In this document: positions 12,605 to 34,319 of the stretch, one piece after another
How positions within the stretch are numbered: position 1 is the first letter of the stretch
How the letters are laid out: every line of letters begins with the position of its first letter
Assembly: GCA_030145395.1 (NCBI GenBank)
Contig: JAQYVR010000090.1
Span: 1-42,861 of the forward strand
Direction of reading: 5' to 3'
Length of the DNA: 42,861 nt
Source of the DNA: Desulfobacteria bacterium
GTDB lineage: Bacteria; Desulfobacterota; Desulfobacteria; Desulfobacterales; C00003060
Notes under the pieces: model-generated
What the model saw: only the letters and a program-made list of their open reading frames with translations
What the model was told of the DNA's origin: nothing
Database searches by the model: none
Made by a program: the position numbers and the translations under genes

Positions 12605-13597
12605 CTAGAATGACCCGGTCTTTTTCAGAAAGTCCGTGTTGGTGGCTTCGATCTGGTCAACGATGTCAAGGGCGACCCGCAGGGCATTCCGTCCGTCCCT
12701 CGCGGATACCAATGGAACCTCGCGATCCCTTACCGACTGAACAAATGCCTCCAGCTCAGATTCGAGGGAATCAGTCTCCTCAAAGCTTCTTCGCTGCAAA
12801 GCCATACCGGGGATGGGAAGCGGCATGCCCTGCCCCCCCTTCTGGATGATGATAATCTCATTATCTGCATAATCGACCGAAACATAGGTGTCTTTCTGGA
12901 AAATACGTATCTTCCGCATATTCTTCAGGGAAATACGGCTGGCGGTTATGTTGGCCACACAGCCATTCTCAAAGACCAGCCGTACGTTGGCAATGTCCAC
13001 ACTGGAGGATACCACCGGAACACCAGACGCGTGAATACTCTTAACCGCGGACTTCACGAAGTTCAGTATGATGTCGATGTCATGGATCATCAGATCCAAG
13101 ATCACATCGACTTCTGTTCCTCGCACTTCTCCTCCCCCTGCAGGTCTCTTGGGAATATGCAGGCGGTGAGACTCTATGAAGAGAGGATGCCCCACAACCT
13201 CTCTCAGGGCAACCACCGCTGGATTGAATCGCTCCAGATGCCCCACTTGAATGATTCGGCCACGGGAATCTGCAATCTCTATGAGGTCATCCGCCTGTTC
13301 AAGTGTTTCTGTCATCGGTTTTTCGATCAACACATCCACATCATTCTGCAAGAAATCACGGCTGACAGAAAAATGCAGGGGGGTAGGTACCACCACGCTT
13401 ACTGCATCGACCTGCTCAATCAGATCTCTGTAGTCGGCAAAAGATTCCGTTCCCAAGCGTTTTGCTACACTTTCCGCCCTTTCGGGAATGACGTCCACCA
13501 CGCCCACAAGCTCCACGCCTTCAATCCGGGCATACTTCTCCGCATGAAACTTACCCAGATATCCAACGCCAACAACACCAACTCGTAATGATTTCAT
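12605..13597 (-). CDS. Gfo/Idh/MocA-family oxidoreductase in the lpx operon
   Basis: A 330-residue NAD(P)-dependent dehydrogenase with a Rossmann motif GVVGVGYLG (7-15), the family motif EKPM near residue 92, and the GHLERFNPA segment. Members of this family next to lpxA/lpxB include GnnA, which oxidises the 3-position of UDP-GlcNAc on the way to 2,3-diaminosugar lipid A. The GnnB aminotransferase is not in this window, so that role is unproven. Another sugar-nucleotide oxidation is also possible. The ATG at 13597 has a weak GAGTAAG site. A 357-base gap with a repeat element separates it from lpxI upstream. Confidence 0.85.
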   Translation of the reverse strand: MKSLRVGVVGVGYLGKFHAEKYARIEGVELVGVVDVIPERAESVAKRLGTESFADYRDLIEQVDAVSVVVPTPLHFSVSRDFLQNDVDVLIEKPMTETLEQADDLIEIADSRGRIIQVGHLERFNPAVVALREVVGHPLFIESHRLHIPKRPAGGGEVRGTEVDVILDLMIHDIDIILNFVKSAVKSIHASGVPVVSSSVDIANVRLVFENGCVANITASRISLKNMRKIRIFQKDTYVSVDYADNEIIIIQKGGQGMPLPIPGMALQRRSFEETDSLESELEAFVQSVRDREVPLVSARDGRNALRVALDIVDQIEATNTDFLKKTGSF

Positions 13598-13640
13598 GTC
13601 TTACTCAGTCAATATGAATGTCTAAAATGTTTACTCTATA

Positions 13641-13912
13641 GTGTCGTGTCTCGGAAAAAACTTTCATCAGTCTTCGGGCGCCGAAAGCCTTTTCCGAGCG
13701 ACATTGAGCATTTTCGGGCACGGAGTGAAGCTTTGCGCTATGAGACGTCAGCTGAGTGGAGCGTCAAAAATAACAAGCTGTTTGAGGGCCTTAGGCCCGA
13801 GTTGTTATGATTTAGCGGAACGAAGCTGACGTCCCGAAAATGGTCACGGAGCAAGGAAAATGGCTTGATTGCGAAGCCATATTGTTTGAACAAACTTCTG
13901 AGACACAACAAT
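13641..13912. repeat. Dispersed long-hairpin element, copy A
   Basis: This fills the gap between lpxI and the Gfo/Idh gene. GTGTCTC (13646-13652) and GAGACAC (13900-13906) are its outer inverted arms. GACGTCAGCT (13744-13753) pairs exactly with AGCTGACGTC (13824-13833). The core is a stem AATAACAA/TTGTTATGATT around GTTTGAGGGCCTTAGGCC-CGAG. Some 200 bases align with copy B at 32764-33060 in the same orientation. No gene is seen in 13598-13954. Confidence 0.85.
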
Positions 13913-13954
13913 AGGTTTTTAGGGGCCAGATCTTGCTTCTTTAAACGAGCAACT

Positions 13955-14767
13955 CTATCCCTTTTTTTCAATACCTATAATAGCAATGCCGTTTCTATCG
14001 GCGAGCGCAACCATCTCCTCCCTGTCAAAGGCCACCGTCCTACCGGCCTCAACAGCCAAGACCGAGGCCCCAACATGGCACATTGTTTGTATGGTCTTGA
14101 GCCCTACAGCGGGCACATCGAATCTCATATCCTGATTCGGCTTACTCGCCTTCACCACTACGGTCTTCTCCTCCCCGAGTTTCCCTCCCCGCTGAATAGT
14201 CGCATCCGTGCCGTCTATTGCCTCGACAGCCATGACCGAGCCGTCCCGGACAACCACACTTTGTCCTATATCTAATCTTCCAATCTCTTTGACTATACCC
14301 CACCCGAAACGGACATCGGCCGTCTCGGACTTGGTTGGCTTGCGCCGCGTCCAGCATCCTTTCTGTGCCAGGAGTTCAGGCAACAAGAAAGTGGAAGGAC
14401 GAACGGTGATATCCTCTTTTTCCAGCTCGCCGGCAAAGGCCCGAAGGAGCCCATCATCCTGCGTATGATCCATTGTGGCAAGGACCTTAAGGGCCCTCAG
14501 ATCTGGCCTCACCCCTGAAAACATCTTGGTCTTGGTAATGGCCCCAACCATCACTGCATCGTGGACCTCATTCTGTTTGAGAAACGAGATGAGGCGGTTT
14601 ACTTGACCGATCTTTACCCACCTTATCGCCTCAACAAGGGTTTCCAGTCGGGGGTCGGTTTCTCCAACATGGGCCACTGCGTAAACCTTTAACCCTCTTT
14701 GCCTCGCGGCCTTTGAGAAGATATTGGGGAACTGCCCGCTCCCCGCGATGAGTCCAATGCGTTCCAT
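13955..14767 (-). CDS. lpxI: UDP-2,3-diacylglucosamine pyrophosphatase LpxI
   Basis: A 270-residue DUF1009 protein that cleaves UDP-2,3-diacylglucosamine to lipid X, the step done by LpxH in E. coli. Diagnostic segments are GLIAGSGQFP (about 5-14), GAITKTKMFSG, MDHTQDDGLLRA and DMRFDVPAVGL. No LpxH-like gene is in the window, so LpxI serves this step as far as can be seen. It begins 5 bases after the lpxA stop, in the same operon. Confidence 0.95.
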   Translation of the reverse strand: MERIGLIAGSGQFPNIFSKAARQRGLKVYAVAHVGETDPRLETLVEAIRWVKIGQVNRLISFLKQNEVHDAVMVGAITKTKMFSGVRPDLRALKVLATMDHTQDDGLLRAFAGELEKEDITVRPSTFLLPELLAQKGCWTRRKPTKSETADVRFGWGIVKEIGRLDIGQSVVVRDGSVMAVEAIDGTDATIQRGGKLGEEKTVVVKASKPNQDMRFDVPAVGLKTIQTMCHVGASVLAVEAGRTVAFDREEMVALADRNGIAIIGIEKKG

Positions 14768-31997: not shown

Positions 31998-32744
31998 CTA
32001 AGATGGGTATTTGACATGCCTTAGGAAAAGCCCGTGAGCAGGGGCTGTTATCCCTGCTTTTTTTCGGTCCTTTGACATCAGAATCCTCTCAACATTTTCC
32101 GGCGATGTTCTCCCCAGCCCCACATCAGCAAGCGTTCCCACAATGTTTCGTACCATGTGCCGCAGGAACCCGTCCGCTTCAATGCTGAAAATCAAGTAAC
32201 CATCCGAATCTCTTCCTGTCAGGCTTAAGTCTATAACAGTCCGGACAGCATGCCGTCGGGCGCTGCCGGTTCCTTCAAAGGCTGAAAAGTCGTGCTGGCC
32301 CTTCAGGCAAAGCATCGCTGTCCTGATTGACTCGAGGTCAAGCGGTTTCCTGATGTGCCACGCGTGCTGCCTAAAGAGGGCAGCCGGAAGCGACCGATTC
32401 AAAATACGATAATCGTAGACCTTGCTCAGGGCGTCGTATCTAGCGTGAAAGATCTCTTCCACCAACACACAATCTTTGATGACAATGTCTGGAGGAAGGA
32501 GGCTGTTCAAGCCCTTCAAGAAGATGTCAGACGTCAGTCTCGTCTCCACACTGAAGTTCGCGACCTGGCCGGTAGCGTGTGCCCCAGCATCGGTTCGTCC
32601 TGATCCGATCAGGGTGACGGACCGTTCCGTCATCGTCTTTAACACGGCCTCCACGGTCCCCTGGATCGTACGCGTATTGCTTTGACGCTGCCAGCCGTGA
32701 TAGGCCGTTCCGTCGTATTCTAAAAGAAGCTTAAAATTCGGCAA
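31998..32744 (-). CDS. truA: tRNA pseudouridine synthase TruA
   Basis: A 248-residue enzyme that makes pseudouridine at tRNA positions 38-40. It begins NFKLLLEYDGTAYHGWQRQ, has the catalytic aspartate in GSGRTDAGAHA (about 50-60), and the C-terminal FLRHMVRNIVGTL block. The start is a TTG at 32744 with only a weak AGG before it. It converges with the CLC gene, whose stop is 6 bases away. Confidence 0.95.
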   Translation of the reverse strand: MPNFKLLLEYDGTAYHGWQRQSNTRTIQGTVEAVLKTMTERSVTLIGSGRTDAGAHATGQVANFSVETRLTSDIFLKGLNSLLPPDIVIKDCVLVEEIFHARYDALSKVYDYRILNRSLPAALFRQHAWHIRKPLDLESIRTAMLCLKGQHDFSAFEGTGSARRHAVRTVIDLSLTGRDSDGYLIFSIEADGFLRHMVRNIVGTLADVGLGRTSPENVERILMSKDRKKAGITAPAHGLFLRHVKYPS

Positions 32745-32763
32745 GGGAATACCTGATAGGGGT

Positions 32764-33060
32764 AGTGTCTTCTCCCTGAAATAAGTTTAATTGGTATGAC
32801 GCCAGCCAAAAGCCTTTTCCGAGCGACATTGAGCATTTTCGGGCACGGAGTGCTTCTTTTCAAGCCGTCAGGCGCAACCTTTGCGCTATTAGACGTCAGC
32901 TGAGTCCAGCGTTAAGAATCATAGACTGTATGAGGGCCTTAGGCCCGAGTTTCTATGATTCAGCGGAACGAAGCTGACATCTCGAAAATGGTCATCGAGC
33001 AAGGGAAATGGCTTGATGGAAGAGCCGCATTTCTTGAAGAAACTCGTGCGACACGACGTT
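32764..33060. repeat. Dispersed long-hairpin element, copy B
   Basis: The second copy of the element at 13641-13912, in the same orientation. The left segment CCTTTTCCGAGCGACATTGA and what follows is identical over some 40 bases. GACGTCAGCT pairs with AGCTGACATC, and the core stem is AATCATAGA/TCTATGATT around TGAGGGCCTTAGGCCCGAG. A stretch of about 30 bases near 32853-32880 is absent from copy A. It directly adjoins the next element at 33061. Confidence 0.85.
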
Positions 33061-33232
33061 AGAAGCCGTCTCAAAAAGGTGAATTAGGGTTCAGGGCAAG
33101 TCGTAGATCCCGAGCTTGCCGTCGGGGGCGCGGGAAGGTGAAAAAGCGCAGCATACACGGTAGTATGTGAGCATTTTGAGCCGACCCGCAACACCGCCAT
33201 GGGGCCTTAGACGCATTTTTGAGGTGGCTTCT
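33061..33232. repeat. MITE-like element ending on the argC stop codon
   Basis: AGAAGCCGTCTCAAAAA (33061-33077) and TTTTTGAGGTGGCTTCT (33216-33232) are 17-base terminal inverted repeats matching at 15 positions. The right end supplies two bases of the argC stop codon (33231-33233). Together with copy B it fills the 486-base gap between truA and argC. No coding sequence is seen inside. Confidence 0.7.
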
Positions 33233-34268
33233 AGAGAGGAAACGGGGGCTGATCAAGCCCGGCCGTCTCGGGAAATCCGAACATGATATTCATATTCTGG
33301 ACAGCCTGACCAGAGGCTCCTTTGACCAGGTTGTCGATCACTGAGATCAGAACCAGACGCTTTGTTCCTTCGGCCACTTGGAATCCTATGTCGCAGTAGT
33401 TTGTGCCCCTCACGTATATGGTATTAGGAAAGCTACCCTTCGGATAGACCCGAACAAAAGGTTTATCTGCATAAAAGGACTCGAGGCAGGAACTTACTTC
33501 CTGGGCAGAGACATCCTTCTTCAGTCCAACATAAATCGTGGTTAGCATTCCCCTTGTTATGGGCACAAGGTGCGGCGTGAAAGTCACGCGGATCTTGCGC
33601 TCGGCAAAGTGGCTCAGAACCTCGTCCATCTCTGGGTTATGGCGGTGCTCGGCCACGCTGTATGCCTTGAAGGCTTCATTTACCTCGCAAAAGTGTGTTG
33701 TCAGACTGACCGAACGGCCGGCGCCGCTGGTACCAGACTTGGAATCTGCAATAATGCTGTCACAGTCGATGAACGGGGCCTTTATCAGCGGCAGCAAAGG
33801 GAGAAGAACGCTTGTGGGATAACAACCTGGGTTCCCAACCAGAGAGGCCTTCCGGATCTCATCAGAATAGAACTCGGGGAGCCCGTAAACCGCTGTTTTG
33901 AGCAAATCTTTGGCCTCATGTGGCTCATACCAGGCTTCATACACACTAGGATCCTTGAACCTGAAATCCGCGCTCAGGTCTATGACTTTCTTTCCTCGAT
34001 GAATGAGTCCGGGCACAACTCCCATGGACGCCTTGTGAGGGATTGCTGTAAATATGACATCTGCTGCCTCGGATACAGAATCTTCTGAAAAGGCCTGGCA
34101 CGTCAGATTCACAATCCCGGCCATGGCGGGATAGACATCGGAAAACGGTTGTCCGGCATGCTGGCGGGAGGTTATCGTTGTTAGTTCTGCGTGTGGATGG
34201 GCCGATAAGATCCGTACCAACTCAGCACCTGCATAGCCGGTTCCACCAATAACTGCTACGTTAACCAT
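33231..34268 (-). CDS. argC: N-acetyl-gamma-glutamyl-phosphate reductase ArgC
   Basis: A 345-residue enzyme of arginine synthesis that reduces N-acetylglutamyl phosphate with NADPH. It has GGTGYAGAEL at the N-terminus, the catalytic cysteine in GNPGCYPTS (about 148-156), and HRHNPEM with the active-site histidine. I chose the ATG at 34268, since GGAGGGGG stands just before it, over an upstream frame of nine residues. No other arg gene is in the window. Confidence 0.95.
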   Translation of the reverse strand: MVNVAVIGGTGYAGAELVRILSAHPHAELTTITSRQHAGQPFSDVYPAMAGIVNLTCQAFSEDSVSEAADVIFTAIPHKASMGVVPGLIHRGKKVIDLSADFRFKDPSVYEAWYEPHEAKDLLKTAVYGLPEFYSDEIRKASLVGNPGCYPTSVLLPLLPLIKAPFIDCDSIIADSKSGTSGAGRSVSLTTHFCEVNEAFKAYSVAEHRHNPEMDEVLSHFAERKIRVTFTPHLVPITRGMLTTIYVGLKKDVSAQEVSSCLESFYADKPFVRVYPKGSFPNTIYVRGTNYCDIGFQVAEGTKRLVLISVIDNLVKGASGQAVQNMNIMFGFPETAGLDQPPFPL

Positions 34269-34319
34269 GTTCCCCCTCCACAAGAAGCGAGCCAAAATGC
34301 CTTAAACGACCTGATTCTG

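Follow-up and report, generated by a model that had tools for sequence, protein, structure and literature searches.

A MITE-like repeat family of Desulfobacterales whose copies differ in length by short nested modules that probably spread on their own

The small dispersed repeats (SDRs) of Nostoc and its relatives are reportedly 21-27 nt long and scattered through their genomes; they are said to lie inside minitransposons and tandem repeats, to nest in their own copies and to be confined to one clade. To our knowledge, how DNA pieces of ~23 bases multiply in genomes is an open question. Enzymes of the IS200/IS605 type insert single strands 3′ of their own short targets. Repetitive extragenic palindromes (REPs) are described in PMC3733652 as palindromes with a GTAG or CGTC tag. 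Among longer elements, those of the IS630 type insert at TA and duplicate it, according to PMC2170065, whose reference list includes a paper titled preferential transposition to TA in 5′-CTAG-3′. Here we describe a repeat family, type I, that resembles MITEs, and two modules, M1 and M2, that occur both within it and elsewhere. Our main reading, to which we give a probability of roughly 0.75, is that type I is a MITE-like family whose length steps come from inserted M1 and M2, and that these modules spread on their own at TT.

The window, the whole 42,861-nt stretch of DNA analysed, is one contig of a MAG of 2.87 Mb in 288 contigs (estimated completeness ~89%). It holds two same-strand copies of type I, as a sequence-only reading had reported; blastn aligns them with an E value of 1.5e-59 and 76% identity, with gap-free blocks of 187 nt (82%) and 55 nt (93%). 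The bounds given in that reading, 13641-13912 and 32764-33060, were nearly right: copy 1 proper occupies 13641-13911 (+, 271 nt) and copy 2 occupies 32765-33059 (+, 295 nt). Each is flanked by TA on both sides, at 13639-13640 and 13912-13913 for copy 1 (13639-13913 with its flanks) and at 32763-32764 and 33060-33061 for copy 2 (32763-33061). The left terminal inverted repeat of copy 1 is GTGTCGTGTCTCGGAA (13641-13656, +) and the right one, read as its reverse complement, is TTGTTGTGTCTCAGAA (13896-13911, -). A central hairpin, CTGTTTGAGGGCCTTAGGCCCGAGTT (13778-13803, +), has an apex that is common to palindromic repeats with other ends; the central hairpin of copy 2 is at 32926-32951 (+). The inverted repeats named earlier are present, both strands fold better than shuffles (RNA z -5.48 and -6.05), and, in line with the earlier statement that the copies contain no reading frame, there is no ORF of at least 90 aa inside either copy. 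Pfam matches confirm that copy 1 has lpxI (13955-14767, -) on one side and a Gfo/Idh gene (12605-13597, -) on the other and that lpxB, lpxA and lpxD are nearby, and they place copy 2 between genes for a tRNA pseudouridine synthase (31998-32744, -) and a semialdehyde dehydrogenase (33231-34295, -).

The strong fold on both strands and the location of copy 1 in a gap between co-oriented lpx genes are what one would look for if selection maintained the whole element, in the lpx operon for instance, as a transcribed structured RNA or as a palindrome that stabilises mRNA. We consider this very improbable, since no Rfam family matches the window at gathering score, copies lie at unrelated loci in both orientations, and the lpxI-Gfo/Idh gap has no trace of the element in 18 of 18 genomes of the genus (the 18, among 21 other genus genomes, that have Gfo/Idh and lpxI on one contig). 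The element is thus not tied to one gene neighbourhood, nor is it limited to the two copies in the window: a search of its own genome gave 42 type I matches with E ≤ 0.001, of which 11 are close to full length, and 20 of 40 relatives also have matches, the best being in the sister genome (G001). Because relatives lack the element in the lpx gap and matches are so many, we take copy 1 to be lineage-specific and the family to be dispersed. In many relatives (loci L074, L076, L081, L084, L085 and L091) the lpx gap is occupied by other repeats, AGTGCCTAAAGTGAACTAAAGTGAGC arrays among them, and it looks like a repeat hot spot.

Type I elements have common ends, GTGTCGTGTCTC, and 72 of 80 element ends abut TA, 60 of these 72 reading CTA. 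This count covers 40 elements, after 9 of 49 automatic end pairs had been dropped, mostly by eye, as spurious or doubled; in the full set of 98 ends, 83 had T at -2 and 83 had A at -1. Among the end pairs listed, 10-16 of the 16 terminal bases are complementary (cut-off 10). The same ends enclose three unrelated interiors, that of type I and two others of ~280-390 nt, type II (L094-L096, L101, L102, L109 and L110) and type III (L097, L099 and L100). Type II elements with these ends also occur at contig ends in one genome (G019; L228-L233), where they are nearly identical to each other; judged from sequence, this suggests that type II may have spread there recently. Directly beside copy 2, and sharing a TA with it, lies a second dispersed repeat (33062-33231, with ends GAAGCCGTCTCAAAAA .. 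TTTTTGAGGTGGCTTC). Repeats of this kind stand next to 10 of the 80 element ends, as expected if both prefer CTAG and each insertion recreates CTAG.

Type I elements are short and ORF-less, with terminal inverted repeats and multiple dispersed copies, as MITEs are, and the TA target with a preference for CTAG is that of MITEs of the IS630/Tc1-mariner group. The earlier proposal of a non-autonomous mobile element is well supported by the many copies, the inverted ends at TA or CTAG, the lack of an ORF and the absence of the element from the lpx site in relatives. We regard type I as a DNA element without genes that is probably mobile and belongs to a group of uncultured sulfate reducers. It would be a non-autonomous, MITE-like DNA transposon family, on whose ends a transposase acts in trans; insertion would probably occur at TA, preferably within CTAG, and an IS630-like enzyme may duplicate the TA. 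Plasmid records gave no match to it, and nothing on the family was found in the available portions of the literature on bacterial repeats, MITEs and Desulfobacter-type organisms.

Whether type I is a MITE derived from the IS630/Tc1-mariner group, with an autonomous partner that the assembly lacks, is, in our judgement, evenly balanced. The TA at 72 ends and the CTA(G) at 60 argue for it, as does the TA duplication of IS630-type elements (PMC2170065), and type I is like MITEs of that group in size, inverted ends, TA/CTAG flanks and the lack of an ORF. It is unlike them in that no partner IS was found, three interiors share its ends, and its copies carry nested mini-inserts. The IS630-type domain DDE_3 (PF13358) has no match in the genomes that hold most copies (G000, G001 and G003); as a source of type I it was rejected, occurring in 2 of 8 genomes (G011 and G016) with matching ends at neither locus. 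DDE_Tnp_1 was rejected likewise, its five loci in 3 of 6 genomes having no matching end pair. The transposase with matching ends that the sequence-only reading had proposed to look for, and with it an autonomous element with type I ends, was thus not found at the DDE_3 or DDE_Tnp_1 loci of these incomplete assemblies. Of the proposed mapping of ends and target duplications, the ends are now placed, with TA on both sides, and no locus-level empty site was found: for two copies (L005 and L101) a search gave none, with no conserved synteny, and the lpx gap in relatives is too diverged to read a target site. Since no copy was compared with an empty site and the searches gave no transposase bearing these ends, the link to IS630 is one that we infer; it bears only on where the transposase comes from and is no rival to what follows on M1 and M2.

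Type I copies come in stepwise lengths, 250-252, 271-272, 293-295 and 315 nt among the element candidates, and the steps correspond to M1 (+21) and to M1 plus M2 (+44). M1 is TAGCGC-N-GCTTCACTNCGTGC, 22-24 nt, and occurs on the minus strand in the left arm of type I and on the plus strand in the right arm. A long form of 45-48 nt contains M2, a module of 25-26 nt that reads TTGCG(G/C)CT..ACG(C/G)CTTGA followed by a tail. The short form is the one in copy 1 (TAGCGCAAAGCTTCACTCCGTGC, 23 nt, 13718-13740, -), where M1-less relatives have TT (AA on the plus strand). In copy 2, M1 spans 46 nt (32843-32888, -) because M2 (TTGCGCCTGACGGCTTGAAAAGAAG, 25 nt, 32853-32877, -) is inserted within it, at the TT of M1's GC-TT-CACT. 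Copy 2 was said to have 30 extra bases; extra bases there are, and the difference is 24 nt, nearly all of it this 25-nt insert in place of TT in copy 1. The sequence-only reading missed that a nested insert, repeated on its own, lies behind the length difference of the two copies. On our reading, type I copies differ stepwise because smaller elements, M1 and M2, have been inserted, M2 often inside M1, and nested modules of this kind explain fixed length steps among copies of one transposon family.

Both modules are found well beyond type I. The pattern TAGCGCN{5,35}CACTNCGTGC has 192 matches in 17 of 22 genomes of the genus and none in a reversed control. M1 lies in type I arms, in type II interiors, in arrays of the decamer ATTCCANNATTCCA, in palindromes (CTGGA..CCCGC palindromes and several that share the apex AACTGTTTGAG..CGAGTT) and at three different sites of a GGAATAC..GAGGA..GAAGCC repeat; these host sites were regrouped by eye. 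Nesting takes two forms, M2 in M1 and M1 in M1 (L266 and L268).

What the modules replace can be read from relatives of the same repeat family that lack them. For each M1 instance with clean flanks, we searched for its two 13-nt flanks, with at most 2 mismatches each, lying 0 to 8 bases apart. Such an M1-less relative was found for 78 of 137 instances (67 of 111 in an earlier run on a smaller locus set); the other 59 had none in the DNA searched. The commonest string in the gap is 2 nt long in 76 of the 78 and 1 nt long in two: TT in 69, CT in 6, T in 2 and TC in 1. By their flanks the hosts fall into 20 clusters; for 11 of them an empty relative exists, with TT in 10 of the 11, a count to be read with the clusters not fully independent, as several share the apex CGAGTT site. 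In other genera, 4 of 25 M1 instances have an empty relative, with TT three times and T once. As a control, only 12 of 548 random 23-nt windows near modules gave an empty relative, and several of those 12 overlap another module. M2, with its right flank set after the tail, likewise leaves a TT gap, whether its host is M1 or a type II interior. At no M1 or M2 site did we see a target duplication, and no more than the two T are lost. There is some variation in the rule, in that M1 loses one T in most hosts and not in M1-in-M1; for M2 and for M1-in-M1 both T are still present, which makes these plain insertions after TT.

We infer that the direction is insertion and not deletion, since it is the version with TT that preserves the decamer array's period. 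A rival view is that M1 and M2 are not mobile, and either passed from repeat to repeat through gene conversion or recombination, or are remnants of one ancestral long repeat that other copies have lost. In keeping with this, every instance with an empty relative lies in a repeat, each empty relative belonging to the repeat family of its filled counterpart, and some host clusters are alike around the apex hairpin. For neither module was a single-copy locus found that one genome has filled and another has empty, and an apparent orthologous locus with M1 (L177, L138, L119, L131 and L123) and without it (L040 and L301) was set aside as a dispersed ~200-nt host repeat. However, the flanks of the 20 host clusters are unrelated, so that recombination would have no homology to use; TT is replaced in nearly all clusters with empties, M1 lies in both orientations relative to type I, and random windows are rarely missing in relatives. 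We therefore think an immobile origin distinctly unlikely, and prefer insertion of M1 and M2 at TT as separate elements.

As to how they insert, M1 and M2 would most likely be placed 3′ of T or TT by an enzyme acting in trans that leaves no duplication, a mechanism we put forward tentatively. Candidate routes without duplication are single-strand insertion of the IS200/IS605 kind and RNA-templated insertion; the single-strand form in particular we regard as possible, if doubtful. An unlikely variant is that M1 is a REP moved by a RAYT-type Y1 transposase, with the M1 pairs of type I being REPIN-like. The size of M1 is right, TAG-like bases precede it, its left- and right-arm instances in type I are inverted, and Y1 transposases (Y1_Tnp) occur in 6 of 8 genomes. 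Yet neither GTAG nor CGTC precedes the stem, M1 and M2 taken alone fold no better than shuffles (a comparison that leaves aside one stretch, L110:1243-1267, cut out of register and lacking part of M2), and none of the 19 Y1 loci has a full-consensus M1 or M2 adjacent (a few degenerate loose-pattern matches were discarded by eye). In one genome (G007, 96% complete) M1 has 16 matches and Y1 has none. Going by PMC3116915 and PMC3733652, M1 and M2 are like REPs and REPINs with their RAYT in being small, intergenic, dispersed and presumably moved in trans, and unlike them in lacking both the GTAG/CGTC tag and a neighbouring RAYT (Y1) gene, in their weak palindrome and in their TT sites within repeats.

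Among the genomes sampled, M1 is restricted to one order. In the GTDB contig collection, the exact 23-nt pattern occurs in 24 stretches from 8 MAGs titled Desulfobacterales or Deltaproteobacteria. Within the order, 35 of 146 genomes match a loose pattern, as do 23 of 103 genera; single matches may be due to chance here, because the reversed control gives about a dozen. With a stricter pattern, 5 of 395 genomes of the phylum match; these 5 belong to the 17 genomes from the same order, and none of the 378 sampled elsewhere in the phylum does, nor does the control. Two exact M1 patterns had no match in IMG/VR viral contigs, and five module strings had no occurrence in the literature searched.

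The modules are 20-30 nt long, dispersed, found in diverse contexts and nested in themselves and in other small repeats, as SDRs reportedly are, and the cyanobacterial SDRs would be the closest known kind. The likeness is in size, dispersal, location inside minitransposons and tandem repeats, nesting and clade restriction; M1 and M2 differ in their phylum and sequences and perhaps in that two unrelated-looking modules follow one exact TT rule. We lean slightly towards the view that M1 and M2 are two of a class of 22-26 nt mobile DNA put at TT without duplication, in almost any dispensable repeat, in one order. If so, they would stand with the cyanobacterial SDRs among the smallest known mobile elements, and would show that a second phylum has such elements, whether they arose there or reached it. 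As a footprint the TT rule is exact and can be checked; together with the two sequences that share it and the list of genomes that carry them, it allows candidate enzymes to be put to the test.

Some smaller features of the modules and their hosts may be added. In favour of structure as the signal, one stem pair of M2 is C-G in 21 instances and G-C in 20, with no mixed pair among the 41, though these are largely two subfamilies; against it speaks the folding of M1 and M2 alone, which is no better than that of shuffles. At two loci (L119 and L123), a further insertion of ~100 nt (CCCTGGCCCAGACCTGG .. CGCCAGGGCGGGC) lies beside M1 in the same host repeat. One apex, AACTGTTTGAG-stem-CGAGTT, is common to palindromic repeats whose ends and stems differ (L027-L030, L115, L187, L190 and L193), and the stem bases beside this apex change on both sides together.
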